Positions 9,431-38,683 of a DNA stretch of 39,357 nucleotides are shown piece by piece; position 1 is the first letter of the stretch; the number at the start of each line of letters is the position of its first letter. Origin of the DNA: a virus; IMG/VR virus record IMGVR_UViG_3300038701_001028, positions 1-39,357 of that record. One strand, given 5' to 3'. The position numbers and the translations under genes are program-made. The notes under the pieces were generated by a model. It did not search any database. It had not been told where the DNA came from and saw only the letters and a program-made list of their open reading frames with translations.

Positions 9431-11503
9431 CTAATTACTTACTAAATGATTGATTGCTAAAATTCTCATAGACCCTGTTGCACCACTAGCTGCTGGCGTT
9501 CTACCCGACAAAGACAATGTAAAGCTACTGGTCGTGTCAAATGTACCTGACTCTGGTGGCCGTGCTAAAAAAGTTGCTCCACCTCCCGAGTCATACTTAG
9601 CTATTGTAATAATACTCGTTTCTACGTCCGATGTTCCACCTGATCCTAGCCCAACATAAAGCTCAAACTGAGAATATAACGTGTCTGCCGACTGAATATC
9701 ACCAACATCAAGATCAGTAAATATAGTAGTCGCATCGAATTCAAGCTGTAAATCAAAGTTACTATTTGTTCCACCTCCTGCCCTGGACGTCTCACCGATA
9801 ATTTGTATAATACCACCAGATAAGGCATTTGCAGGTATAGTTACTGTTTCGATATCTGTATATCCGCTATCGCTTACACCTGTGTAACTAAAGTCAGGCA
9901 GTATTAAAGGAGATACATTCCCTCCAAATCTGACACCTGCTGTAACAGTGCTATCTGCTACAACTGTTTTGCCATTGCTTCCTACCGTTACTTCTACTGG
10001 GGTGTCCGCTGCACTTGCACTTACTATAGAACCTTTAGCTGTAAATAATCCTGCTGCGATTGCGTTTCCTAAGAAATCAGAAGATATGTTGCCCTCATCA
10101 TCTAGTAAAGCTACTTTTCCCTCATCTGCCGTAGGATCAATCACCGCTGCTGTAGCCACACCGTTTCCAGTATCCGAATCTAGCCATGTTCCAGCTCCTG
10201 CTCCTGAAATATCCGTCCCAACCGTTCCTGTAGATGTTGTTAATACTGCGAAGGCTGAACTAGATGTTGTATCGCCACTTGTGAATACCATCGTAGCACC
10301 TCCCCACGTTACTGTTTCACTTCCACCTGTTGCAGCCCTTAAAGATAATTGCAGTAAAGCCGCTAGCTCAGTCATTGAAGTTACTATTCCTAATGGTCCA
10401 CTAGCCGTAGCGTCTATACCGTCCACATTGTAAGCCGTACCATCAATATCAGTAGCACGGAAAGACATGTCCGAAAGACTGTCCCATAAAGAAATATTTG
10501 TTTCGATAGAACCTCCACTTGTTAAGAATGCTGGCGTGTAAGTTTCATGCTCTGTTACTCCTTCTCTTTGTGAACTTGCTGCAATGCTTAGAGTTTCATT
10601 CCCTCCTGTGTTTTGTTTTGTGATTGTCACGTTATCACCTGCTACCAATTTGTCTTCCCCGTAACCAGCAGTAGTATCTGCTGCTGAAATCTTTAGTAAA
10701 ACACTAGCTGATACATCAGTATTGTTGATCCAGTTAGTGCCGTCATTAGAGAATTGAACGAAATCTGAACTCCACCTTAAAAATCCTTTAGTTACTCCTG
10801 GTGTAGTTGTTCTATATAAAGTCGTTACTTCACCACTAGCTCCAGGCTCTGTCCCTATTACAAACCCTGCACCACCTGTAGCTATGGACCCATTCATTGT
10901 AGCTAACATTAATGACCCAAATACCCCAGAGATGTTGCAAGAAACAGCATCACCAGCTTTATGCGTAACAGCTAAACTAGAGTTAGAAGTAACCCAGTCT
11001 AAGCCATTTAAGTCTATACCTCTAATCACGCCATTTGCTGTAAGTCCAGTGTCAGTAATAGCTTGTGTTAATGTTCCATTGACCGTAGCTGAACCGCCAT
11101 CTTCGTCTGTTATCGTTTCATCGTTTTGAAAAGTACCAGAATAAACCACTAGATAAAGAGTACCTGTTGTTCCTCCGTCAGTATCGCTTACAATCATAGC
11201 TGTTGCACCACTTGTACCTCCAGTTAGAACCTTTCCAACTGTGAAATTAGCCGTTTGAGCGTCATAAGCTAGTGAACCTGTAGGGATTAAACAGTTTTCC
11301 ACGTAACTTTGATCATTCTTAATCCCTAAGAACATAGCTTTTGTTATCACATTGCCATCAGTGTCTAATAGTGGATTAGTGAACTTTAGGGTCGTTGAAG
11401 TCTTGCTAGTAGCCTGTGATAGTCGTGGATTCTCTGCTCCTGGACGTGATAATTGCGTCAGGATGATAGAATCTATCGGAAATAATTTTGTAGCATTAGC
11501 CAT
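9431..11503 (-). CDS. Large beta-rich fibre-like virion protein with copied module
   Basis: A 690-residue protein, Gly/Ser/Thr-rich. Residues 77-147 are the module shared with the next two genes (F-T-V-G-x-V-L-T-G-G-T-S-G-A-T-A, then G-T-F-Q-N-D-E-T-I-T). Residues 155-420 contain fibre-type strands, with a stretch around VTEHETYTPAFLTSGGSIET and ISLWDSLSDMSFRATDIDGT. The C-terminal 150 residues form a likely beta-sandwich (SGYTDIETVTIPANALSGGI, then QLEFDATTIF) like fibre head domains. It follows the hub-like gene by 9 nt. Host binding or adhesion is inferred. Confidence 0.7.
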   Translation of the reverse strand: MANATKLFPIDSIILTQLSRPGAENPRLSQATSKTSTTLKFTNPLLDTDGNVITKAMFLGIKNDQSYVENCLIPTGSLAYDAQTANFTVGKVLTGGTSGATAMIVSDTDGGTTGTLYLVVYSGTFQNDETITDEDGGSATVNGTLTQAITDTGLTANGVIRGIDLNGLDWVTSNSSLAVTHKAGDAVSCNISGVFGSLMLATMNGSIATGGAGFVIGTEPGASGEVTTLYRTTTPGVTKGFLRWSSDFVQFSNDGTNWINNTDVSASVLLKISAADTTAGYGEDKLVAGDNVTITKQNTGGNETLSIAASSQREGVTEHETYTPAFLTSGGSIETNISLWDSLSDMSFRATDIDGTAYNVDGIDATASGPLGIVTSMTELAALLQLSLRAATGGSETVTWGGATMVFTSGDTTSSSAFAVLTTSTGTVGTDISGAGAGTWLDSDTGNGVATAAVIDPTADEGKVALLDDEGNISSDFLGNAIAAGLFTAKGSIVSASAADTPVEVTVGSNGKTVVADSTVTAGVRFGGNVSPLILPDFSYTGVSDSGYTDIETVTIPANALSGGIIQIIGETSRAGGGTNSNFDLQLEFDATTIFTDLDVGDIQSADTLYSQFELYVGLGSGGTSDVETSIITIAKYDSGGGATFLARPPESGTFDTTSSFTLSLSGRTPAASGATGSMRILAINHLVSN
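11063..11275 (-). repeat. Copied module 1 of 3 (TSGATA module)
   Basis: Codes residues 77-147 of the 690-residue protein. It shares S-L-A-Y-D-A-Q, N-F-T-x-G, L-T-G-x-T-S-G-A-T-A, G-T-T-G-T-L and F-Q-N-D-E with copies at 12683-12901 and 13698-13910. DNA similarity is visible around GAGCRTCATAAGCTA. Confidence 0.85.
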
Positions 11504-11512
11504 AGTAATAAA

Positions 11513-13303
11513 TTAGAGAATTGTAGTCATTTGTCTACGCTTGATAGGTGGTCCGTCTGTAACATTTGCTGAAAACCAGTTAATAATGTGTGGCTGATCT
11601 ACCCCACTTTTAAATCTAACCGTGATTCTTTGGGCATTCGCTATTCGGGGCTGACAACCATTCCAATCTTCAATCATATCAGACAAATCAAAGTCACCAC
11701 CCCATGCACTCAGCCCCCATGCAGCTCTGCCCCATTCATCAATCGTATTATCGTTTCGACTTGGTGTCCATCTGCGAATTTTCTTGCCTAACATTGGCGC
11801 ACCATCTACATCATATATATCAAAATAAACATCGATTTCGGTACCAGTACTCAAAAATCCCTTTGTATAAAAATCACTTAATGAGTGTGAATGCCACAAA
11901 CTCTTTAAAGGTAACTCTTGAGCATATTCACAAGAAATTTCTAGCCCATCATCAGTATATCCTTCAAAACATTTGTACAGTACGCCGTCCGTAGAACTTG
12001 CAGCGTAAATTCTGTTATTATATTTAGCAAATCTACTGATCGACCAACCTTCAATTTCAAATAGAGCTTCTCTTTCTTCACTCATCTTATAAGCCAAAAC
12101 CTTATTATTAACACTTGAGCCTTGCGCATAAGTTAATAAAATCAATTTTTGTGCTTCATCATGCACTAAGTCTGTATTTGTAAAATCAACGTCATTAAAA
12201 TAAAAATCATTCAAGAGTACACTAACTAACTTTTGTTGCCGACTATAAGGTACGTCTGTTTGCCCAATTTGCACTAATTGCCATACTCCACCCTCGTTGA
12301 CATAGAAAATACCTTTTGGCGTTGTAATTGCACCTCTAGCACCTCCATAATCTACAGTATAATCTTGAATAATTTCTACTTTCTTTATTGTTCCTGCACT
12401 ATCTAATTGTTTTACTTCAAAGGCAAAATAACCATCATCGCTAAACACAACGAAATATCCTCCTAGAGGCTTACAATCTCTTGCTGTTCCTGCATTTCTT
12501 GCTGAAACTACTGCTCCTTCCGTTGCATCTGTACCCGTGCTCCAAGCATCAAAAGGCGGGTTTGACCCATCATCTACTTCCGAAATCTGCACTGCTGTCG
12601 GGTTGTCTTTCAGGCTAATTGCAACTGCTCTGGCTCCAATAAAATTAATGTCCGCACAAACTGGCGCATTAGCAACCTCAGTAATTGCAAACCCTACAAC
12701 TCCATTCGCTGTTGCTGATCCTGTTGCAGTATCTGTGATAGTTTCGTTATCTTGGAATACCCCACTAATTGATCCGAGCGTCAAAGTCCCAGTTGTACCC
12801 GAGTCATTATCTTCAAGAATAATCGCAGTTGCTCCGGAAGTAGCGCCTGTAAGCACTTGGCCTGCTGTAAAATTACCACTTTGAGCATCATAAGCTAAAG
12901 ATTGAGAAATTCTATAAGGCTTCTCTTCGTTATTTGTTACAAAAAAGTAATCCCCGTATCTATCGCCGCCCCATTGTCCTGATGTGAAATCGATTTTAAT
13001 ATCCGTAAAAGTCCCATCAACAATGTTGTAAGCTCGAATATTTGTTCCTTCACCTACAATGAAATAATCATTTGCATAATATGAGTAAAGGCTCGCACCA
13101 GTTGCACCAAGTTTTTGAGCTACACGTTCTAAGCCTCGCCTCGTGCCAACACCATAAGAGTACGGTATATAGTTCACAATCTTCTTTGCGTAGGTTAAAT
13201 CCATCATTTCTGGCAAACCTTCTTGATTTAAACCTTTTTGTGCCATCGTAGAAACTTGTGTTGTAGTTCGGCTCCGACTTTTTACTTGTAAAGGTGTATA
13301 CAT
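11513..13303 (-). CDS. Tail hub / stabilisation-type virion protein
   Basis: A 596-residue protein. The N-terminus (GLNQEGLPEMMDLTYAKKIV, NYIPYSYGVGTRRGLERVA) follows the pattern of podovirus tail hub or packaged-DNA stabilisation proteins, in which a phrase like NYIP...G.-.-R.G precedes beta-propeller-like repeats. Residues 72-135 and 210-480 contain such blades (YYANDYFIVGEGTNIRAYNI, GDRYGDYFFVTNNEEKPYRI). Residues 135-207 are the inserted TSGATA module. The C-terminus is a beta domain with QRITVRFKSGVDQPHIINWF. It directly follows the adaptor-like gene, as expected for a head-tail connector series. Confidence 0.7.
   Translation of the reverse strand: MYTPLQVKSRSRTTTQVSTMAQKGLNQEGLPEMMDLTYAKKIVNYIPYSYGVGTRRGLERVAQKLGATGASLYSYYANDYFIVGEGTNIRAYNIVDGTFTDIKIDFTSGQWGGDRYGDYFFVTNNEEKPYRISQSLAYDAQSGNFTAGQVLTGATSGATAIILEDNDSGTTGTLTLGSISGVFQDNETITDTATGSATANGVVGFAITEVANAPVCADINFIGARAVAISLKDNPTAVQISEVDDGSNPPFDAWSTGTDATEGAVVSARNAGTARDCKPLGGYFVVFSDDGYFAFEVKQLDSAGTIKKVEIIQDYTVDYGGARGAITTPKGIFYVNEGGVWQLVQIGQTDVPYSRQQKLVSVLLNDFYFNDVDFTNTDLVHDEAQKLILLTYAQGSSVNNKVLAYKMSEEREALFEIEGWSISRFAKYNNRIYAASSTDGVLYKCFEGYTDDGLEISCEYAQELPLKSLWHSHSLSDFYTKGFLSTGTEIDVYFDIYDVDGAPMLGKKIRRWTPSRNDNTIDEWGRAAWGLSAWGGDFDLSDMIEDWNGCQPRIANAQRITVRFKSGVDQPHIINWFSANVTDGPPIKRRQMTTIL
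12683..12901 (-). repeat. Copied module 2 of 3 (TSGATA module)
   Basis: Codes residues 135-207 of the hub-like protein and sits between two propeller-type segments (after EEKPYRISQ, before a segment that resumes with VCADINFIGARAVAIS), so it looks inserted into a pre-existing fold. Confidence 0.85.
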
Positions 13304-13304
13304 A

Positions 13305-14171
13305 TTAGAAATCAGTTGTTGGATTATACATTTGAGAAATCTGTGGCGTTCTATTGTAATAACTTAGGACATCGCCTAATGCCCTCACTAAACGGAAATC
13401 AGCTACACTTTCAGGTGCAACATTCTCATTGTTACCATTCCATTGCTCATACATTACATCGTAAGCCTTAATTAAGTACTCCTCATCTCTGTTTTCGACT
13501 AAAACTAGCCCTGTCTCAGTACCATCTAAAGTAAAATATTGATCCACAGAACTTATAATAACTGGTTCTGGTATCCATCTAGCCATGAAAGTCTTTTCTT
13601 TAGCGTTCGTGAATATCATGTCTCCTTGATGAAGGTAATAACCTTCATTCGTAGACCCGAAACCTGTGATGCTTAGTTGGTTTTCTTTGTTCACTTTGTA
13701 AGCAGGTGTACCATTAGCTGTCGCACTACCGCCACTTGAACCTGTAATCACTTCATCATTCTGAAAAGTGCCACTAATATTTTTAATAGTAAGTGTTCCT
13801 GTAGTTTCGTTGTCAGAGTCCTTTTTGATCATAGCTGTTGCACCACTTGTCCCACCAGTTAAAGTCGCTCCTACGGTAAAATTAGCTGTCTGAGCGTCAT
13901 AAGCTAACGTAGCATCGCTAATCTCAAAGAAGCCTGTTCCCGTTTGATTAAAATCTTGAAATCCACTAGGTAAAGTGAATGTGTCAGGATCAGTCTCAAC
14001 ATAATATAGGTCTTCACTAATAAATCTTTCAGGATCAATTGCTTTAAGCCTCTTGTAAATAAATGTCAGCATGTAGCGTGACCATTGTACCCATAAGTCA
14101 TCATCAACATCTGAAATGTCTTTTTTGTAATATCCGAATTGTGTTTTTAGATCAGAGATCAGTAACGCCAT
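13305..14171 (-). CDS. Head-tail adaptor-like virion protein with inserted module
   Basis: A 288-residue protein. Residues 1-86 (MALLISDLKTQFGYYKKDIS, DVDDDLWVQWSRYMLTFIYK) and the C-terminal part (VENRDEEYLIKAYDVMYEQW, then the disordered end YNRTPQISQMYNPTTDF) are helical and look like the conserved body of a podovirus adaptor. Residues 88-158 are the TSGATA module, which splits the protein. Without it the protein would be about 215 residues, closer to adaptor size. It lies between fibre-like genes and the hub gene. The adaptor assignment is inference from order and helical layout. Confidence 0.6.
   Translation of the reverse strand: MALLISDLKTQFGYYKKDISDVDDDLWVQWSRYMLTFIYKRLKAIDPERFISEDLYYVETDPDTFTLPSGFQDFNQTGTGFFEISDATLAYDAQTANFTVGATLTGGTSGATAMIKKDSDNETTGTLTIKNISGTFQNDEVITGSSGGSATANGTPAYKVNKENQLSITGFGSTNEGYYLHQGDMIFTNAKEKTFMARWIPEPVIISSVDQYFTLDGTETGLVLVENRDEEYLIKAYDVMYEQWNGNNENVAPESVADFRLVRALGDVLSYYNRTPQISQMYNPTTDF
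13698..13910 (-). repeat. Copied module 3 of 3 (TSGATA module)
   Basis: Codes residues 88-158 of the adaptor-like protein. It is closest in wording to module 1 (D-A-Q-T-A-N-F-T-V-G and G-T-F-Q-N-D-E are identical in the two). Confidence 0.85.
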
Positions 14172-16428: not shown

Positions 16429-17367
16429 CTAAGTTGTGCCATCTGATCCATAAACTTGATACGGCATATTAATCACACCTTGCTTCCAGAAGCCAGTTGC
16501 GTTAGTTCTATATGCTTCGTTATCTAGCTTGATTGGCTCTCTAAGAGTTGGGTAATCACCGATACCAACTGCAAGCGGACTAAGTTCCATTGTTAGATCC
16601 ATTAAGAACCAGTAGTTCTTATTCGCTGTAGTGATATAAGGTGTTTCAATAACTGTTAGTTCACCTTCGTAAATGTTAATATCATTTACGGCTGTAGGTA
16701 CGATATCTTTAGCGAAAAGTTTAATAGCCTCTCTGTGAGCTGCTGAACCCTTTTTCACTACGATATGTGACCAGTTTAGCGGGTCTTCCTTCCCTGCTGG
16801 GTCAGTGTAAGCACCTGCATATTCCCATGCTGCATCGTATGCGTCAGAATCAAGTGACGCTGTTACAGCATTATCAAATGTTGCCCCAGAGTTCCATGAA
16901 TGTGTACCACAAACTTCTACTGAATCAGGTGCAAGATAAGCAGAACCAGAATCAAACGCCTCATTTAACATGAGATGTGAATTGGTCATGATTTTCTGTG
17001 TACTTGTCTTTAGAAGTTGGTTTCTTTGTCTCTTCAAGTATTCATTTACTTTCCAAGTCGAATCTTGCCCGTCTCTTCTGTAAACTTTTTCAGGAAGAAC
17101 GATTGCACCACCGAATCTTTCTTCAGTGATAGTTACACTATAACCATCTTCAAGGTTAAGTGCTGGTGGAGTCTCAAGAACACCTAGCTCTGTAACACCT
17201 GACATACCTTCCGTAGAAGTATAGATCTCTGAAACTTCAGGAGTGTTATAGAATTGTAGGTAACCTTGCTCCATATATTGTTCGATACGGTACTTACAAG
17301 CGTTATCAAAAGATTTTTTAATCCCTTTGACAGCCTGTAAGGCGTAATCTGCTGGAGTTGTTGCCAT
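16429..17367 (-). CDS. Major capsid protein
   Basis: A 312-residue protein. The N-terminal helix (ADYALQAVKGIKKSFDNACK) is followed by LNLEDGYSVTITEERFGGAI, VLPEKVYRRDG and a long mixed alpha/beta body typical of HK97-type capsids. Length suits a small T=7 head without accessory domains. Order is decisive: terminase, portal, a 137-residue coil, scaffold-like protein, the 135-residue decoration-like protein, then this gene, with a hairpin right after it. The leader (ATTTTAATTAATTCTTAATC) has no Shine-Dalgarno sequence even though this should be the most translated virion gene. Confidence 0.85.
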   Translation of the reverse strand: MATTPADYALQAVKGIKKSFDNACKYRIEQYMEQGYLQFYNTPEVSEIYTSTEGMSGVTELGVLETPPALNLEDGYSVTITEERFGGAIVLPEKVYRRDGQDSTWKVNEYLKRQRNQLLKTSTQKIMTNSHLMLNEAFDSGSAYLAPDSVEVCGTHSWNSGATFDNAVTASLDSDAYDAAWEYAGAYTDPAGKEDPLNWSHIVVKKGSAAHREAIKLFAKDIVPTAVNDINIYEGELTVIETPYITTANKNYWFLMDLTMELSPLAVGIGDYPTLREPIKLDNEAYRTNATGFWKQGVINMPYQVYGSDGTT

Positions 17368-20754: not shown

Positions 20755-22332
20755 TTAATTGTTGATGTAACTCTCGTAAGCCTTGCTGTAAGACTTAGTG
20801 CTAGGCGCCTGTGTTGCGTATTTGTGCATTTGCCAAGCGATAACAACGGCAGTCAACAGGTCGAAATGCTTCGTAATAAGCCCAGCAGTACTTTCTTGTA
20901 GATCATTATTCGTATAAGCTCGCATTTCCTTTAGAACTTCTTCGTCATGGATCGTCATCTTGCCATCATTATAATCACGTCTAAACTCAAAATACATATT
21001 GTACTTCGTCGAGCCATTCGAGTTCCAACCAAGTTTCTGAGTCTTTTTATCTTTGACCTCACCCTCCTTATTCCTCTGGTAAATATTAGGATATCCAAGC
21101 TGCTTCAATGTTGCAAGAGCTGTGCCTCCGCAAGTATTATTAACTTCAGGAGCGTAAATACAGTTACCATATTCACCGCCCACCCTTGCGAACTCATGAG
21201 TCGCTAGATCAGGCGCGATTGAATTATTCGCATACGTGACGACTAACTCGCCCTTAGTGAAATCAAATACAGCTAACGTGTTTGCATCTTGCCCTATACC
21301 CTCGGAATGATCTGACCCCATACCGTAACGATGATGCGGTTGATATTTACCCCAATACTTTACTCCAGCAGATGTTCTATCTGGCGGCTTCACGTTTTCC
21401 ATGTCAGCCTTAATCCTGTCGAGATCAAAAAACTTATTGGTAGATCGTGACGGGTCACACATGTATTCACCAAAGAAGTCATCTGCGTTGTCTTTTAAAT
21501 TCTGGATACGATCCTTCGTATCACGTTCAGGCCAAGTCGGGTTTAGCTCCTCGTCAGCGATAGGACTAATCAGAGTCATCACATTTGGCTTATTCATAAA
21601 CCACTCAATCGTACCTTGATCTGATATATAATTCCCCAAGACCATATACGAACCATCCGTAGACAAGCCATCGATAGCCTCGGATATACGGTCGATAATC
21701 GCTCTTGTAACGATACTAGATCGGATTGAGTCTCTATCTTCCACATCGTCAAAGAGTACCCAGTCTGGACGGTAAGCATCCTGCACATGGCCACGTTGTG
21801 TTTGCCCTACCGTTCCTGCGGCAAGTTTACGATCCCCTTTCATGGTAAAGCTAGACATAGTTTCTTCCCGCTTCTTCTCCCCGTCCTTCTGGAACATATC
21901 CCCGTATACATCCCTAGATTCTAAAACGAGATTGTAAATGTCGGTCACAAACTGCTTAGAGTTACGACCATCCTTAGTTAATACCTTCATGTACCGACGG
22001 AAACTATCTCGATCATTCAGTAGCACAAAAACAACAAATAACTTAGCTAGCGTAGTCTTAGCTGTGCCACGCCCTGCAATATTAGCGAAATTCTTCTTGC
22101 CAGGGTCATCATGGAATACTCCGAAATAACTAGCAATCATATTGATAATCATATCATCATGAAACGCTGGCGATTTAACCTTGAAATATCTAGGGTATTG
22201 CCCTCTAGCGAAAATCTTAAACTTCTTAGAGATCGTCCTATAACTATCGTTACTATCAAAGCTGTATAACTCATACTTTTCAGCAGGAGTGCCATTTAAA
22301 ACAATGTCCTTAATAAATTCCTTAGAATTCAT
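20755..22332 (-). CDS. terL: Terminase large subunit
   Basis: A 525-residue packaging motor and headful or site nuclease. Walker A-like GRGTAKT at 87-93, Walker B WVLFDDVED at about 191-199 with catalytic acidic residues following the strand, and an RNase H-type nuclease with D341 (GMGSDHSEG), D349, E396 and D491 (KHFDLLTAVVIAW) as likely metal ligands. Length is normal for the family. It lies 2 nt after the small subunit gene and 63 nt before the portal gene. No sign of truncation or inteins. Confidence 0.93.
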   Translation of the reverse strand: MNSKEFIKDIVLNGTPAEKYELYSFDSNDSYRTISKKFKIFARGQYPRYFKVKSPAFHDDMIINMIASYFGVFHDDPGKKNFANIAGRGTAKTTLAKLFVVFVLLNDRDSFRRYMKVLTKDGRNSKQFVTDIYNLVLESRDVYGDMFQKDGEKKREETMSSFTMKGDRKLAAGTVGQTQRGHVQDAYRPDWVLFDDVEDRDSIRSSIVTRAIIDRISEAIDGLSTDGSYMVLGNYISDQGTIEWFMNKPNVMTLISPIADEELNPTWPERDTKDRIQNLKDNADDFFGEYMCDPSRSTNKFFDLDRIKADMENVKPPDRTSAGVKYWGKYQPHHRYGMGSDHSEGIGQDANTLAVFDFTKGELVVTYANNSIAPDLATHEFARVGGEYGNCIYAPEVNNTCGGTALATLKQLGYPNIYQRNKEGEVKDKKTQKLGWNSNGSTKYNMYFEFRRDYNDGKMTIHDEEVLKEMRAYTNNDLQESTAGLITKHFDLLTAVVIAWQMHKYATQAPSTKSYSKAYESYINN

Positions 22333-22865: not shown

Positions 22866-24491
22866 CTATCCCTTAAAGAATTTCTTAACTTGTTCTACAT
22901 CATCCTCTTCATTAGTAATTGCATATTCGCTAGTAAGTAGTAAACCTGCTGCACTAACTGCATTTGTAAGTGCCATACGAATAACTTTGAGCGGATCTAT
23001 TATACCATGTTCTTTCATATTAACGATAGTATCAGTCAAGACATCATACCCTTCACCGTCCTCTAGCTTCTTTAGGATTTTATCGTGATCCTCTACTCCT
23101 GCATTATGTAAAATTTGACGTATGACAGATTCACAAGCTGTTTTCAGCGCTTGTCCTGCTTTACCCTCTAAATATCGTGCTGCGCTAAATAACGCAACCC
23201 CTCCGCCTGATACATATCCTTCTTCCATTGCCGAACGAGTAGCCTTAATAGCATCTTCTATTCTTAGCTTTAACTCTTCATTGTCTGCATTAGTTGCAGC
23301 ATTTACTTTGATAGTAGCAACTCCACCAGTTAGGTTAGCGTATCTTTCTTTGATTTGATCTTGCTCCATTGGGTCTTCCGCATTATCAATTTGCCCTTTT
23401 ACAGCATTCACACGGTCTAGGTACTGGTCTGTTTTCAATTGTTCACTGGCAACAGTTAGAACTAACTCATGACGATTAATAATTGCCGACTCAGCCTTCC
23501 CTAACTCAGTAAGGTTAAACCTAGACAAGCTTACTCCTTCTTCTTCATTTATAATTTGACCCCCTATTAAACCTTGTACATCTTTATAAACTTCTTTCAT
23601 ATTCTTTCCTGCAGTAGTAGGTCTAAACCAAACCCACTTAATCACCTCTTTGTTTTGATTCATAAACATAATAAACTTGCGAGACAACTTTTCGGCTACA
23701 ACTAGAAGTGTTGGCACATAAACCTTGGTTACCATAACTTTACCGTCTTTTACTTGCCCATCCGTCAATTGTCTTAAGAATGGAACCCATTTAGATTCAA
23801 ACTCGTGATCTTCTGGTGACTCTTGCAACATTATTACCTTCAAATCAGACATTTTAGTCTCCCATTTATCTTCATTATCTAACATACCCGCTACAAGCTG
23901 CCCTTCTAGTCTTAACCCAGCATCCTTTTCTACATATACACCAGGTTCAATTGCATTCTTAACAGTGACAGCTCCACTAGCTCCAAGTTCATACATTAAA
24001 TCTCCTATCTTTTCCCCTAATGCCTCGTCTTGCACTGAAACGGTCGCAATTTGTCTAGCTCGCTTTTTAGAGTTAACGTTGTCTGCTGATTTTTTTAGAT
24101 TTGTTAGCACTTTCTCAGCACACGAATTCAAGTCTTTTCTAAATAAAACAGGGTTTTCTCCCTCTTCGATTGCTTTCCATCCTTCTTTCAATATAGCTCT
24201 GCCTAACACGATAGTACCAGATGTTCCGTCTCCTGCATGATAATCAGTCTGAGCCGCTGCTCCCTTTAATAGTTGCGCTCCCATATTTTCTACAGGATCA
24301 CTGAAAAATATCTCACTAGCAATAGTTACTCCATCATTAATAACAAGCGGGGTGCCATGGTCTCTTTCTATAATGACATTACGTCCTTTAATACTCATAG
24401 TACTTCCAATAACATCTGCGAGCTGGTCTACTCCGTTCATTAACTTAGATCGAGAACCCTTATCATGTATCCTCTTGTTTACAATATTCAT
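22866..24491 (-). CDS. groEL: Phage-encoded chaperonin GroEL
   Basis: A 541-residue group I chaperonin. ATP-site features are kept: D53 in INDGVTIASEI, the AGDGTSGT loop (D88), D413 in IEDAIKATRSAMEEG and the GGGVAL turn, plus NMGAQLL and the C-terminal IIDPLKVIRMALTNAVSAAG block. The apical domain (about residues 190-375), which holds substrates and the lid, is strongly diverged; for instance the usual KAPGFGD block is replaced by VWFRPTTAGKN. The Gly-Met-rich tail of bacterial GroEL is absent (ends EQVKKFFKG). It is 8 nt after the GroES gene. It likely folds capsid or other virion proteins, alone or with host rings. Confidence 0.95.
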   Translation of the reverse strand: MNIVNKRIHDKGSRSKLMNGVDQLADVIGSTMSIKGRNVIIERDHGTPLVINDGVTIASEIFFSDPVENMGAQLLKGAAAQTDYHAGDGTSGTIVLGRAILKEGWKAIEEGENPVLFRKDLNSCAEKVLTNLKKSADNVNSKKRARQIATVSVQDEALGEKIGDLMYELGASGAVTVKNAIEPGVYVEKDAGLRLEGQLVAGMLDNEDKWETKMSDLKVIMLQESPEDHEFESKWVPFLRQLTDGQVKDGKVMVTKVYVPTLLVVAEKLSRKFIMFMNQNKEVIKWVWFRPTTAGKNMKEVYKDVQGLIGGQIINEEEGVSLSRFNLTELGKAESAIINRHELVLTVASEQLKTDQYLDRVNAVKGQIDNAEDPMEQDQIKERYANLTGGVATIKVNAATNADNEELKLRIEDAIKATRSAMEEGYVSGGGVALFSAARYLEGKAGQALKTACESVIRQILHNAGVEDHDKILKKLEDGEGYDVLTDTIVNMKEHGIIDPLKVIRMALTNAVSAAGLLLTSEYAITNEEDDVEQVKKFFKG

Positions 24492-24499
24492 AGTTTTAA

Positions 24500-24805
24500 T
24501 TAAAGAATTGCTAAAATTTGATCATGCTCAACAAACACCATCGGTATTTCGCCCTCTACATGATTTGGGACAAAATGTCGATTAAATAAAACGGTGCTAC
24601 CTACTTTTAGTCCTTGTTTTCTTAACGCCTTCATCTGCTTCCCAGTGCCTATAGCTTCTACCGTTCCTTTATTCTTTTCTCCATCAGCCTCCATGTTTAC
24701 AGTCATTTTCAGTCCTCCTACGTCTAATCTTTCTTTTTTAACTAAAATTCTATCACCTAAAACAACAACTGAATCCAAGTTGCTAAATATGTCTACTTCG
24801 TTCAT
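24500..24805 (-). CDS. groES: Phage-encoded co-chaperonin GroES
   Basis: A 101-residue GroES-type lid protein. It shows VVLGDRILVKKERLDVGG (first strands and mobile loop), NKGTVEAIGTGK, LKVGSTVLFN and the C-terminal VEHDQILAIL, all in the family order and at normal length. The tripeptide that usually contacts GroEL (I-V-L after GG) is here L-K-M, which fits co-evolution with the unusual apical domain next door. It is the first gene of the chaperonin pair; a leader inverted repeat lies 33-63 nt upstream. Confidence 0.93.
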   Translation of the reverse strand: MNEVDIFSNLDSVVVLGDRILVKKERLDVGGLKMTVNMEADGEKNKGTVEAIGTGKQMKALRKQGLKVGSTVLFNRHFVPNHVEGEIPMVFVEHDQILAIL

Positions 24806-27859: not shown

Positions 27860-27905
27860 TACTTACACAATACGCCACATCATAGGATTGTCAAGGATAT
27901 TACAC

Positions 27906-27952
27906 TTGATCTTATTCATTACTTCGTATAAAGTAAGGTTGTTATCATTTAA
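27906..27952 (+). promoter_or_regulatory. Early rightward promoter 1
   Basis: TTGATC, 17 bp, TAAAGT (or TATAAA two bases earlier), then TTGTTATCATTTAA. The same block with equal spacing recurs at 29847-29893, which marks it as a true repeated promoter. The first gene starts at 27962. Confidence 0.6.
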
Positions 27953-27961
27953 TATATAAAC

Positions 27962-29621: not shown

Positions 29622-29850
29622 ATATAAAATCATAAAAGGAGCACAAGGCTTACACAACGCCTTGGTGATCCTAGAATACATAAGAGACTACAACAAAGAA
29701 CATAACACTCCACCAACTATTCAAAATATAGCCGATACAATAGGATATAAAAGCACTGGCTCAGTGTGGCCTTACATCCAAATGCTAGAGAACGAAGGCT
29801 ATATACTAAGGAATGGGAAACGTAAAAGATATACTTTACTAAAGCCTTGA
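29614..29850 (+). CDS. LexA-type winged-helix regulator
   Basis: A 78-residue protein with the LexA DNA-binding-domain pattern: ALVILEYIRDYNKEHNTPPT, IQNIADTIGYKSTGSVWPYI, QMLENEGYILRNGKRKRYTL. The self-cleaving C-terminal half of LexA is absent, so it must be switched in another way or be constitutive. Its last codons overlap promoter 2 (TTGATT begins at 29847). Confidence 0.75.
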   Translation: MNKYKIIKGAQGLHNALVILEYIRDYNKEHNTPPTIQNIADTIGYKSTGSVWPYIQMLENEGYILRNGKRKRYTLLKP

Positions 29851-29893
29851 TTTATTTCGTAATTTCGTATATAATATACTTGTTATCATTTAA
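29847..29893 (+). promoter_or_regulatory. Early rightward promoter 2
   Basis: TTGATT, 17 bp, perfect TATAAT (29870-29875), then TTGTTATCATTTAA at the same distance as in promoter 1. The predicted transcript begins about 22 nt before the ATG at 29904, which fixes that start. Confidence 0.8.
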
Positions 29894-29903
29894 CATTGTA
29901 AAA

Positions 29904-30200
29904 ATGTTTACAAAGAAAAATATTGGTTTATTTACTCTTATGGCTGTTATCGGTTTCATAGGAGGGCAAGTAGTGTTTGCTGATGCTAATGTCGACAAGC
30001 ACGTACAGACTTTTAAAGAGTCTTCTATTAAATACATACAAGAAACGTGTGGGTTTAAGAAGCTTCAATTAGAAGAGTCTAAGTTTACAGAGGCTACACC
30101 AGAGAATGTTAAGGTGTATAATCTGCTTCAAACAGATGAAGGTTGTTACTACTGGTTTTATGACTCAGTATTAAAAGGCGAATTGGGAAAGTCTCAATAG
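29904..30200 (+). CDS. Secreted protein, in-frame product (N-terminal part of frameshift fusion)
   Basis: A 98-residue protein from the ATG at 29904; the longer frame would start at a TTG inside the promoter. Residues 1-27 (MFTKKNIGLFTLMAVIGFIG then GQVVFA) are a signal peptide with cleavage likely after VFA. The mature part has two Cys (CGFKK, GCYYW) and is otherwise unknown. Near the end the codons read TTG GGA AAG, containing GGGAAAG, two codons before the stop TAG. A -1 shift there fuses it to the lysozyme-like frame that follows. Confidence 0.75.
   Translation: MFTKKNIGLFTLMAVIGFIGGQVVFADANVDKHVQTFKESSIKYIQETCGFKKLQLEESKFTEATPENVKVYNLLQTDEGCYYWFYDSVLKGELGKSQ
30185..30191 (+). other. Predicted -1 ribosomal frameshift site GGGAAAG
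   Basis: The heptamer G_GGA_AAG is in the correct phase relative to the upstream frame, two sense codons before TAG. It is the slippery sequence used by phage lambda genes G and T. The downstream frame has no ATG, GTG or TTG until 30443, so it needs this shift. Confidence 0.7.
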
Positions 30201-30754
30201 CGGAATCTAACAAAACTAATCATGATGAATTCAGAGGCGTACAGAGCGCACCTATACAATCGGATACTGAAATACAATCCAAAGTTTCAGCGGCAACTAG
30301 CACGGATAATAGCGTTGAGGTATCTCAAGCAGGACAATACTGGGAGTATTTCGAGCCGACCAATCAGCGTAAAGCAGGACTTATTAAGTATTTACAACAA
30401 GAAGCGAGTCGCAAAGGGATTGACCATTCGACCCAAAGATACATGCTCGCACAACTTGAATGCGAAAATACTCAGTGGACTCCTGACAGGCAAGAACTTG
30501 GAGGAACTAACCATTACGGATTATGGCAAGCTTCAAGCAAATGGTTTCCGCAGGCAGCAGATCCAGCATGGCGACAAGACCCTATTAGGCAGGTTAATGA
30601 GTTTATTGACCTGTGGCTCGCACGTGAAGATCTTTACAACGGGGATATTGATAGGATTCTTGAGCACCACTTTGGCCCTGTCAATGCTCGGAATAATACA
30701 ATAACGTGGTACACGGAGAATATTAAAGAGAATTGTTTAATTAGATTTATATGA
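30191..30754 (+). CDS. Lysozyme / transglycosylase-like domain in the -1 frame
   Basis: In the -1 frame 187 residues follow the slip site, giving a fusion of about 283. Residues 1-75 of this part are an S/T/Q-rich linker (SIAESNKTNHDEFRG and so on). The core has LIKYLQQEASRKGID, AQLECENTQW with a likely catalytic Glu, then HYGLWQASSKW, matching the E-S and G-L-M-Q motifs of soluble lytic transglycosylases (GH23/lysozyme fold), and IRQVNEFIDLW. With the upstream signal peptide it would act in the periplasm or outside the membrane. Possible roles: superinfection exclusion, wall loosening or lysis. It ends overlapping the next gene (ATGA). Confidence 0.7.
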   Translation, partial: VSIAESNKTNHDEFRGVQSAPIQSDTEIQSKVSAATSTDNSVEVSQAGQYWEYFEPTNQRKAGLIKYLQQEASRKGIDHSTQRYMLAQLECENTQWTPDRQELGGTNHYGLWQASSKWFPQAADPAWRQDPIRQVNEFIDLWLAREDLYNGDIDRILEHHFGPVNARNNTITWYTENIKENCLIRFI

Positions 30755-31712: not shown

Positions 31713-32435
31713 ATGAAAACATTTAACAACGATCCGAAGCTAAAAGAAGCTTTACTACAAGAAATTAAAAAACACCAAGAAGCTGACATGATTCAACAAG
31801 GAACATACGGTGAACAAAATGGAAAATGGAAAGGGTGTGCAGTAGCTTGCTCTCTAAGGTCTTATGCTATAACCCAAGGAGAAGAAATGCAAGAAGAATA
31901 TAGCGAACATAAACTCTATGAACGCTTTGGGCTACCTGAGTGGTTTGCACGTCTTGAAGATGCTTTGTTTGAAGGCATGACAACAGAAGACTCATTTAGT
32001 TTTCCTTATGATGTAATGGAAGCTGTACCTGTAGGAGTGGATATTGAAAAAGTAAAGTGGCAATTCGGCTCTTACTTGATGGATGAAAACATTAAGAACG
32101 TTGAGGGGCTAGATCTTGATACGGGCCTGAAAAATCAAGTTATCAAAGCGATTAAACAGGTGCAAGCAGTACACGATAAAGCGATAGAAACAGGCGAATG
32201 GGCTGAGTATGCTGCTGAGTATGCTGCTGAGTCTGCTAGGTCTGCTGCTGAGTATGCTGCTAGGTCTGCTGCTGAGTCTGCTGCTGAGTCTGCTGCTGAG
32301 TCTGCTGCTGAGTCTGCTAGGTCTGCTGCTTGGTCTGCTACTTGGACTGCTAGGTCTGCTGAGTCTGCTGCTAGGTCTGCTGCTTTTAAAAAACACGCAG
32401 ACAAGCTTATAGAATTATTAAAAGAATATAACTAA
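31713..32435 (+). CDS. Protein with Ala-rich helical repeat tail
   Basis: A 240-residue protein. Residues 29-125 form a conserved-type domain (YGEQNGKWKGCAVACSLRSY; EHKLYERFGLPEWFARLEDA; LFEGM; DVMEAVPVGVDIEKVKW), a combination I have seen in phage and bacterial proteins of unknown function that carry Ala-rich tails. Residues 164-225 are tandem A-A-E-S, A-R-S-A and A-A-E-Y tetrads that should make one long amphipathic helix or fibre. The DNA of the tail is a 12-bp-type repeat (GCTGCTGAGTCT), prone to slippage. Confidence 0.7.
   Translation: MKTFNNDPKLKEALLQEIKKHQEADMIQQGTYGEQNGKWKGCAVACSLRSYAITQGEEMQEEYSEHKLYERFGLPEWFARLEDALFEGMTTEDSFSFPYDVMEAVPVGVDIEKVKWQFGSYLMDENIKNVEGLDLDTGLKNQVIKAIKQVQAVHDKAIETGEWAEYAAEYAAESARSAAEYAARSAAESAAESAAESAAESARSAAWSATWTARSAESAARSAAFKKHADKLIELLKEYN
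32203..32382 (+). repeat. Tandem GCTGCTGAGTCT-type repeats
   Basis: A run of 12-bp units (variants with TAT, AGG or TGG) coding the Ala/Ser/Glu tail of the 240-residue protein. It causes long meaningless open frames on both strands. Confidence 0.9.
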
Positions 32436-32603: not shown

Positions 32604-33581
32604 ATGTCAGATAGAAATAAAGATTGCTCTTCTTGCTATGATTGCTCTTATTGCTTTGATTGCTCTGATTGTTCTTCTTGCTCTTCTTGCTCTTCTTGCT
32701 CTTCTTGCTTTGATTGCTTTTGTTGCGATTCTTGCTCTTATTGCGATTCTTGCTCTTATTCTGCTAGGTTAAGAATGTCAGAACACATGATGTTCTGTTT
32801 TGGTGAAGGTCAGTATAGTAGTAGTGGCATAGGGTATCAAAATAATTATCATGTATTTAATAAACCTGTTGATAAGGAAGTTTACGATGCAATAGATAGG
32901 CCTTATATTAAATTAGACTGGACTAAATATAAAAACTTTAAAGCTGCATTTCAAGCTGGATGGGAGGAAGCACCACAAGAAGAACGAGACAAGGTTTTAA
33001 ACCTACCTAACTTTGATGCTGAACTATTTAAAGAACATTGTGGAGTAGATATATCAGAACAAGACAGCGCTGCTCAAGAGGCTATTAAACTACTTGAAAG
33101 TAAAGGATTTAAAATAATTAAAGAACAATCAATTAACCTAGATAGTATGAACAAATATGAACAACTTATAGATAAACTTGCAGATAAGACTTTGAGCTTT
33201 GGGCAAAGTATTCATACAGAGCGAGGGGTAGAAAGAGTTATTGGAGGCGAGTACGAGAGTATAATGTTGGCATTTGATGTTTGTGACTGTACGGAGATAA
33301 CAACGCTAAGCGGTCTTGATCACGATAATGTGGTAGGCCACCCAATCTATATAGGTGATGTACTGGCTAAGATAGAGGAGATAAAGGGTATTGACGTATG
33401 GGATGCAGATAAAAACTTGTTAGTGCATTGGGGTGCTTGCGGCTTCTCTAAATCCCTCCAAGAGATATACGAGGGGACGAAGCTAATCGACTGTGGATGC
33501 AAAGACGAAAAGCACGATTACCTAGCCGACCCAAACGCAGAAGCCCTATTAGATTACTTAATTAACCTAGATATAGTATGA
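32604..33581 (+). CDS. Cys-triplet-repeat protein fused to a second phage domain
   Basis: A 325-residue frame. Residues 8-50 have a Cys every third position (C-S-S-C-Y-D-C pattern, 15 in register plus C40), probably a metal-binding or disulfide solenoid. Residues 58-145 (HMMFCFGEGQYSSSGIGYQN, HVFNKPVDKEVYDAI) are a second unit. From residue 182 a different family begins (MNKYEQLIDKLADKTLSFGQ, GHPIYIGDVLAKIEEI, SLQEIYEG, PNAEALLDYLINL), preceded in the DNA by the same AACCTAGATAGT leader that stands before several separate genes here (ATG at 33147). So this may be a fusion, or a gene with an internal start. Confidence 0.65.
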   Translation: MSDRNKDCSSCYDCSYCFDCSDCSSCSSCSSCSSCFDCFCCDSCSYCDSCSYSARLRMSEHMMFCFGEGQYSSSGIGYQNNYHVFNKPVDKEVYDAIDRPYIKLDWTKYKNFKAAFQAGWEEAPQEERDKVLNLPNFDAELFKEHCGVDISEQDSAAQEAIKLLESKGFKIIKEQSINLDSMNKYEQLIDKLADKTLSFGQSIHTERGVERVIGGEYESIMLAFDVCDCTEITTLSGLDHDNVVGHPIYIGDVLAKIEEIKGIDVWDADKNLLVHWGACGFSKSLQEIYEGTKLIDCGCKDEKHDYLADPNAEALLDYLINLDIV

Positions 33582-33755: not shown

Positions 33756-33995
33756 ATGGAAAAACAAGAAATAATTTTTTACAGAGAAAGTCTGATACAG
33801 TCTATTTTAGCTGATGTATTTAGCTACGGTATCTTAGTAGGTTCAGTAGCTTTTAATCACTTATTGATAGGTAGTAAATTTTTAAATGCAGTATTACTAG
33901 TGATGTTCATAATGTTTATTACGGCTAGAGTAAGTGCCAAGAAAAAGACTTTTACAAACAAAGAAGACCTACAAAAATATATCGATAACCTTTAA
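33756..33995 (+). CDS. Small inner-membrane protein
   Basis: A 79-residue protein with two membrane segments (about 17-36, VSFSYGILVGSVAFN-like, and 42-58, FLNAVLLVMFIMFITA) and a charged C-terminal tail (KKKTFTNKEDLQKYIDNL) on the cytoplasmic side. Leader C precedes it. Possible host-membrane modifier or exclusion protein; no family recognised. Confidence 0.65.
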   Translation: MEKQEIIFYRESLIQSILADVFSYGILVGSVAFNHLLIGSKFLNAVLLVMFIMFITARVSAKKKTFTNKEDLQKYIDNL

Positions 33996-37598: not shown

Positions 37599-38093
37599 TT
37601 AGATTAAATCCCATCTAATGTATTTTAGCATAGGTTCGAGATCTTTTAAACCTTTTGCCCCCTTTGAGCCTGTATCATAATCATGGGTCTTATCTTCTTG
37701 TCCTGTAAGGTCAATAAACGTATGACAAAGCTCATGTATGATTGCGTAAACTAACCAGTCTAAATTGTCTGTGTCTTTTAATATAATCAGTTCTTTTTGT
37801 TCATGATCTGCTGAATAACCTCCTGCATTCTTTCTTAGCCATTTCTCTTTAGGTATACATATAACAGTAATATCAGTATCAAATACCAAATTGTCCCTTT
37901 TCCACTTGGCTGTAGTTCTGTTCCCTGAATTAGCATAAGGAGTCGACCATCCATAGGATTCATATTCTTTACGGTGAAATGCTAAATCTATATTAACCTT
38001 ATCCTGAAACCATTTCCTTACCTCTAGCAGTTTCTCTAGATCTTTTTGAGGTAGTTCTGGTCGAACGATTAAAACCTTTACTTTCGGCTTCAT
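37599..38093 (-). CDS. HExxH metalloprotease-like protein in lysis cassette
   Basis: A 164-residue protein. Residues 115-140 (YAIIHELCHTFIDLTGQEDK, then THDYD) hold the zincin motif H120-E121-x2-H124 with H137 as a possible third ligand. The N-terminal half is alpha/beta. It starts inside the stop of the M23 gene (ATGA) and precedes the holin-like gene, so it is made with them. It may cut cell-wall peptides, process a fibre, or act on a membrane protein. The closest named family is not clear. Confidence 0.65.
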   Translation of the reverse strand: MKPKVKVLIVRPELPQKDLEKLLEVRKWFQDKVNIDLAFHRKEYESYGWSTPYANSGNRTTAKWKRDNLVFDTDITVICIPKEKWLRKNAGGYSADHEQKELIILKDTDNLDWLVYAIIHELCHTFIDLTGQEDKTHDYDTGSKGAKGLKDLEPMLKYIRWDLI

Positions 38094-38683
38094 GCTTTTT
38101 TTTTACTGTCTGTATATTTCATGTTAGCCGTTAATAGTTCAAACCACTCTATATCATGTGGTTCATCTACGCTTTTAACTCCTGCCTCCTTAGCTTTATC
38201 GTACCAACCTTCTTCTACAAACCAAGGGATTTGTTTTCCTGTGTATTTATCCATATATCTTAATTTAACTTTATAATATAAATCTGGATCAATGAAGTTA
38301 TCTATATCATTGATATCTAATTTGTTCTTACTGATATCCCAATGAGTGTGAGGATTCGTAGTGTACTCACCACTGTTTCCTGATACTCCGATTCTATCTC
38401 CTTCTTTTACAGGGTTATGACTTTCAACAACACTCAAGTGTGCGAACCTGTGAATAATCTTCTCTACTCCAAAATACTCACACATATAAGTACCAGCTTC
38501 TTCTAAGTGTAGCCATTGACCGCCTTCCTCGCCATACGGTGCAGCGGTAATAAATCCATCACACGGTGCGTATAACACGTCATAATTAGATACTAAGTCC
38601 CTACCTAAATGTTCTGTATTATAGAACGTCCAATCACGAAAACCATAGTATCCTGGTATGTACGCATCGTGTATAAATTTCAT
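38090..38683 (-). CDS. M23 endopeptidase (endolysin or virion exit)
   Basis: A 197-residue protein from the ATG at 38683 (MKFIHDAYIPGYYGF); an in-frame TTG six bases upstream is less likely. The zinc site is complete: H25-x3-D29 (EHLGRDL), catalytic H82 (RFAHLS), and H112-T-H114 (NPHTHWDIS), with typical YAPCDGFITAA, GDRIGVSGNSGEY strands between. It cuts peptide cross-links of peptidoglycan. No signal peptide, so it needs the holin to reach its target. Its promoter is 20-49 nt upstream. Confidence 0.85.
   Translation of the reverse strand: MKFIHDAYIPGYYGFRDWTFYNTEHLGRDLVSNYDVLYAPCDGFITAAPYGEEGGQWLHLEEAGTYMCEYFGVEKIIHRFAHLSVVESHNPVKEGDRIGVSGNSGEYTTNPHTHWDISKNKLDINDIDNFIDPDLYYKVKLRYMDKYTGKQIPWFVEEGWYDKAKEAGVKSVDEPHDIEWFELLTANMKYTDSKKKA

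Follow-up and report, generated by a model that had tools for sequence, protein, structure and literature searches.

A candidate exported lysozyme-like enzyme of a phage, probably produced by -1 frameshifting

In a virus record of 39,357 bases that carries no tRNAs, analysed here over its whole length (the window), a short ORF encoding a putative signal peptide (the stub) is followed in the -1 frame by a start-less coding frame for a lysozyme-like domain. We propose, at a probability of about 0.74, that the two produce a Sec-exported, endolysin-like lysozyme as the minor -1 frameshift product of one gene. Frameshifting is supported by the structure of the frames, by the rule that marks gene starts in this phage and by a distant phage, G399, in which a gene of the same family is split at a slip site of its own. 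A preliminary description had suggested such a frameshift; the three lines of evidence sustain it, and the unsplit gene of two other relatives (G013 and G006) counts against it.

According to this proposal, the stub and the -1 frame would be a single gene on which ribosomes begin at ATG 29904. For most of them translation would end at TAG 30198, giving a short protein for export. A minority would shift by -1 at G_GGA_AAG and read on into the linker and the lysozyme-like domain, so that a cell-wall enzyme of 283 residues, exported by Sec, is made in smaller amounts than the stub. The most likely role of the product would be that of an exported endolysin, or a lysis aid, waiting in the cell envelope. 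The frame structure and phase, the family of the -1 domain, the parallel case of G399 and the single-frame form of G013 are observed here; we infer the occurrence and rate of slippage, export, enzyme activity, timing and role.

Frame layout, slip site and initiation signals

The features of the locus are as follows.
29847..29875, + strand: sigma-70-like promoter TTGATT-17-TATAAT (10/12 matches), 5' of the stub
29891..29894, + strand: TAAC initiation motif, 13 nt 5' of the stub ATG
29904..30200, + strand: stub ORF, putative Sec-type signal peptide (MFTKKNIGLFTLMAVIGFIGGQVVFA) plus ~70 residues, ending in TAG
30185..30191, + strand: slippery heptamer G_GGA_AAG, in phase and separated from the stub TAG by two sense codons
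30191..30754, + strand: -1 frame, with linker (~30191-30406), lysozyme-like domain (~30407-30751) and stop TGA (30752-30754)
30222..30704, + strand: 160-codon ORF in the 0 frame, overlapping the lysozyme; a possible overprinted gene

The stub ORF has 98 codons, from ATG 29904 to TAG 30198-30200, and its hydrophobic N-terminal segment is followed by a VVFA site, the putative end of the signal peptide. Its codon usage resembles that of other genes in the phage. Around the slip site the 0-frame codons are TTG, GGA and AAG, followed by TCT CAA TAG. The -1 frame is open at 30164-30754, between a preceding TGA at 30161 and the closing TGA, and shares 37 nt (30164-30200) with the stub frame. When translated from the slip it extends for 187-188 codons, in which the earliest ATG, GTG or TTG is ATG 30443. 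The downstream ORF begins at ATG 30751 and overlaps the -1-frame stop. The preliminary description had reported this arrangement, namely the signal-peptide stub with the in-phase heptamer before its TAG, the long -1 frame with no ATG, GTG or TTG before 30443 and the next gene starting within the stop, and our frame analysis confirmed each of these.

Codon likelihood indicated that the best frame switches from 0 to -1 at about 30180-30210. The -1-frame linker (30203-30442) outscored 99.5% of out-of-frame stretches taken from the phage's own genes, and the domain part outscored 98.7% of them. Heptamers of the form X_XXY_YYZ occur in phase at 37 of 9718 codons across the genes of this phage; the chance of finding one in the 11-position overlap is ~4%, and 1% for the GGGAAA/AAAAAA class. 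The frameshifting review PMC5009743 counts G_GGA_AAG among the highly shift-prone sites in E. coli and among the slip sites of G-T genes; the preliminary description had named it as that of lambda G-T. No stable RNA fold was predicted 3' of the slip site as a stimulatory structure (z about 0 to +1.5). An AAGG lies 6-7 nt 5' of the slip site in the window and in G399 alike; it is doubtful that it stimulates slippage in the manner of a Shine-Dalgarno (SD) sequence, because these phages start genes without SD sequences. The 35 other window genes (29.5 kb) contain no frame break, which argues against frequent indel errors.

An SD-like tetramer was found at 0 of 37 gene starts in the phage, against a background of 10%. 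Most starts are instead preceded, about 10-16 nt upstream, by TAAY (TAA[T/C]). Within a strict range of -14..-10 it precedes 25 of 35 genes, compared with 9% of all ATGs. TAAY lies ahead of the stub and also of the gene that follows at 30751. As far as 30443, none was found before any ATG, GTG, TTG, ATT, ATA or CTG in the -1 frame. Thus, the lysozyme frame is start-less by the phage's own rule. TAAY is a non-SD initiation signal that deserves separate study; starts with TAAY and without SD sequences were also seen in G013, G008 and others.

Sigma-70-like promoter sites in the window do not exceed the number in shuffles. The promoter before the stub lies in a 51-nt element (29846-29896) that is repeated with 76% identity at 27905-27955, where it heads the run of + strand genes. 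Each copy is located just 5' of a gene start and contains a TTGAT..17..TATAAT-like promoter. This common promoter-like element suggests early transcription.

The ORF that overlaps the lysozyme in the 0 frame (30222-30704) lacks stops to an unusual degree: synonymous permutation of the lysozyme gives such an open frame with P 0.0008, and the same test on 35 other genes yielded nothing comparable. A TAAC lies 14 nt 5' of its ATG, and its C-terminal tail is hydrophobic. We found no homologue and no codon signal for it, and its charge is typical of +1 frames. It is possibly an overprinted gene.

The lysozyme-like family and its distribution

Direct scans of viral and genome collections and phage records detected no relatives of the stub or of the -1-frame protein, and a scan with the motif NHYGLWQ likewise found none. 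Relatives were then reached via the terminase; for the stub and the linker, the searches made brought up nothing closely related. Other genes of the window are as follows.
16429-17367, - strand: capsid-like gene
20755-22332, - strand: terminase
22866-24805, - strand: GroEL/GroES-type pair, adjoining the terminase
33756-33995: two-segment membrane protein
38090-38683, opposite strand to the stub: M23 endopeptidase

The relative G013 (L057/L044; IMGVR_UViG_3300009149_000007) shares with the window its terminase (63%), capsid, other genes and two-strand layout. It carries an ATG-started gene of 270 residues in a single frame, comprising a signal peptide, a helical/linker region and a lysozyme-like domain that is 24% identical to the window -1-frame protein. 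As in the window, this gene sits between ssb-like and HNH genes, and small membrane proteins, holin-like in look, run directly 5' of it. G006 carries the same lysozyme gene. Signal peptide, linker and lysozyme family are thus common to G013, G006 and the window, but in G013 and G006 they are read in one frame. The preliminary description had regarded a relative with a single ATG-started frame as contrary to frameshifting, and these two genomes are such relatives. Judging by these genes, the split into two frames is not universal and is not needed for function. The single-frame gene with the same domain order in G013 further implies that the fused product is the functional unit.

A scan with the G013 domain identified G399 (L071/L072/L076), the domain of which is 49% identical to that of G013. 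Coding cover of G399 is 8% under the standard code versus 83% with TGA as sense. Its stub has 101 codons, a strong N-terminal hydrophobic segment and a TAAY motif before it. An in-phase G_GGT_TTA at 2851-2857 is followed by AGG TAG, leaving one sense codon before the TAG, and the -1 frame encodes a linker (GFKVEQSSSEKKPTTPKVVEKKEVKSEVKQEPTPSGS...) and then LMECENALRDPYRKAEGKEDSWGFCM, of the same lysozyme family as the window. Codon statistics do not discriminate between the frames in G399, so there the evidence for a split consists of the domain match, an open linker, the TAAY motif upstream of the stub and the heptamer. Such a heptamer is expected by chance at ~4% in G399, and jointly in the window and G399 at ~0.15%. 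Among the relatives found, the heptamer and its phase can be compared in G399, which has its own in-phase site, and in G013 and G006, which are unsplit; the searches gave no close one.

We also scanned 416 kb (the window plus relatives) for stubs with a slip heptamer within 15 codons of their end and at least 60 further codons in the -1 frame. Of the 14 stubs retrieved, most represent overlapping genes of the usual kind or frames that do not code. A hydrophobic N-terminus joined to a recognisable enzyme was seen in the window and G399 only, with the same enzyme family in both.

To relate the -1-frame protein to this family, a profile was built without the window from G399, G013 and one Patescibacteria chromosomal protein, L073, which was matched by profile in one genome and is plausibly a chromosomal relative with an unsplit frame. 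In hhalign this profile matched the -1-frame protein with 94% probability (E 1.2e-7); the control, the 0-frame ORF over the same DNA, gave 0.6%. Identity to the family is 21-26%, which is remote homology. With the window included, the profile matched C-type lysozymes alone in the PDB, weakly (E 0.23-0.5), and without the window it gave no lysozyme match there. The -1-frame protein had no match in Pfam, PHROGs or NCBIfam, and AlphaFold single-sequence models were too poor in quality to support any fold reading. The lysozyme-like family of the -1-frame protein is well supported by these comparisons, and its fold moderately so. The lysozyme/transglycosylase motifs noted in the preliminary description are consequently upheld at the level of family by the relatives' profile, and less firmly at that of fold, the domain databases giving no match. 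Two other Patescibacteria candidates, L067 and L068, had weak matches to P0001 alone and were judged spurious.

A further relative, G004, has a secreted lysozyme/SLT-like gene (L033 7775-8641) with a full signal peptide, a TAAY motif and an apparent ATT start; no ATG, GTG or TTG lies ahead of it. Its lysozyme-like domain did not match the family profile and matched Pfam SLT weakly. The G004 protein resembles the stub over 18 residues (FTE..P...K.Y.L..T), a likeness that was unconvincing against shuffles and was dropped.

TGA is read as sense in Gracilibacteria and Absconditabacteria. The host is likely to belong to the Patescibacteria sphere, because a Parcubacteria MAG contig carries a relative of the terminase (41%) and because G399 needs TGA as sense; a pattern scan for TGA-recoded host genomes found none. 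The window and G399 are very distant phages with different codes and different GGG-type sites at the same position of the protein. On this ground, we give about even odds to frameshifting being a recurrent, independently evolved means of rationing an exported lysozyme in phages of the Patescibacteria sphere, with G004 perhaps limiting a similar enzyme through an ATT start.

Alternative explanations

The main rival to frameshifting is an indel, either an assembly or sequencing error or a real mutation, that broke a gene still unsplit in living relatives. The ATG-started form of G013 and G006 is unbroken, and joining the two window frames gives exactly that architecture. However, the break falls on an in-phase slip heptamer (<=4% by chance), the frame 3' of it is still intact and coding-like, the other window genes are intact, and G399 has the same break with its own heptamer. 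We therefore regard an indel as unlikely. It is very unlikely that there are two genes, with the lysozyme starting alone from ATG 30443 or from a non-standard codon, perhaps through re-initiation following translation of the stub. Although ATG 30443 is present and the related G004 appears to combine ATT with TAAY for its own lysozyme-type gene, all candidate starts in the -1 frame of the window are without TAAY. Further, a start at 30443 would lose the linker and the beginning of the domain and leave an 80-codon coding-like linker unexplained, and an enzyme without a signal peptide would depart from G013 and G399. Readthrough of the TAG into the 0 frame was rejected; that frame has no relation to lysozyme, and TAG is an ordinary stop in this phage (10 of 44 genes). 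Against frameshifting itself weigh the unsplit gene of G013 and G006, the lack of a stimulatory structure, the remote homology and the absence of SD use.

Frameshifting may also be real and serve superinfection exclusion or another early role at the envelope, not lysis. The gene lies on the strand of the replication genes behind the promoter-like element common to 27905, and the phage has, on the other strand, an M23 peptidase resembling endolysins. Yet comparative evidence for such a role is lacking, and the G013 lysozyme is directly 3' of small holin-like membrane proteins. We consider an early envelope role fairly unlikely. Superinfection exclusion, put forward in the preliminary description, found no evidence. 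A role as exported endolysin or in aiding lysis agrees better with these membrane proteins and with the analogy to the Kayvirus enzyme Tgl; the window, too, has a two-segment membrane protein and an M23 endopeptidase.

Comparison with known systems and genome context

Phage frameshifting is known chiefly from tail assembly genes, and that of lambda G/GT needs no strong RNA structure. Lambda G/GT resembles the window in having the same in-phase G_GGA_AAG just before the 0-frame stop and, by our proposal, a longer product that is minor; programmed -1 frameshifting in lambda G/GT-type tail assembly genes is reviewed in PMC5009743. Lambda G/GT yields a tail chaperone, whereas in the window the slip would join a signal peptide to a catalytic domain and give a putative exported wall enzyme. 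Kayvirus Tgl is a Sec-secreted lytic transglycosylase, an early-expressed phage endolysin (PMC7150955). By description, Tgl is comparable with the window product: each is a phage enzyme, Tgl with a cleavable signal peptide and a lysozyme fold, the window product with a putative signal peptide, a lysozyme-like domain and probably early expression as well. Tgl, of a Staphylococcus phage, is encoded in an ordinary single frame and the window protein in two.

The endolysin Lyz of P1 is exported by host Sec. M4Lys belongs to the group of SAR/secreted endolysins, which are exported by host Sec without release through a holin hole (PMC7143992). Sec export is likewise proposed for the window enzyme, but SAR/secreted endolysins are controlled by membrane release or by loss of membrane potential, and in the window control by frameshifting is proposed in addition. 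The L protein of MS2 is not an enzyme. According to work cited in PMC5009743, translation of the MS2 lysis gene follows out-of-frame reading of the coat gene. In MS2, and by our proposal in the window, a lysis function is throttled in translation from an upstream frame; MS2 uses termination and re-initiation, whereas the slip in the window would fuse two proteins.

Lysis timing is thought to depend on holins or membrane release. If the proposal is correct, dosing of an exported wall enzyme by frameshifting would be a new control point for lysis and slippage a way to ration a dangerous enzyme, and annotation pipelines would be overlooking start-less endolysins in phages of uncultured bacteria. 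The preliminary description knew of no described phage wall enzyme made by frameshifting from a secreted stub. Our literature search on frameshifting with endolysin, lysozyme, signal peptide or Gracilibacteria phages, which covered few subscription papers, likewise found no described case, and the available part of PMC5009743 mentions neither endolysin nor lysozyme. Frameshifting and secreted endolysins are each known, and we did not find their combination described, which is not proof of novelty.

The stub and lysozyme frames are housed in a + strand run of small genes that includes ssb-like, LexA-type HTH, RusA and HNH genes. GroEL is also present in the relatives G004 and G005. At 9431-14171, a repeated segment (LAYDAQTANFTVG..LTGGTSGATAMI...) is common to the ORF translations of three adjacent structural genes. 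The genes at 32604-33581 and 32169-32393 are dense in short repeats, 9-nt units rich in Cys/Ser/Asp and 12-nt units rich in Ala/Glu/Ser.
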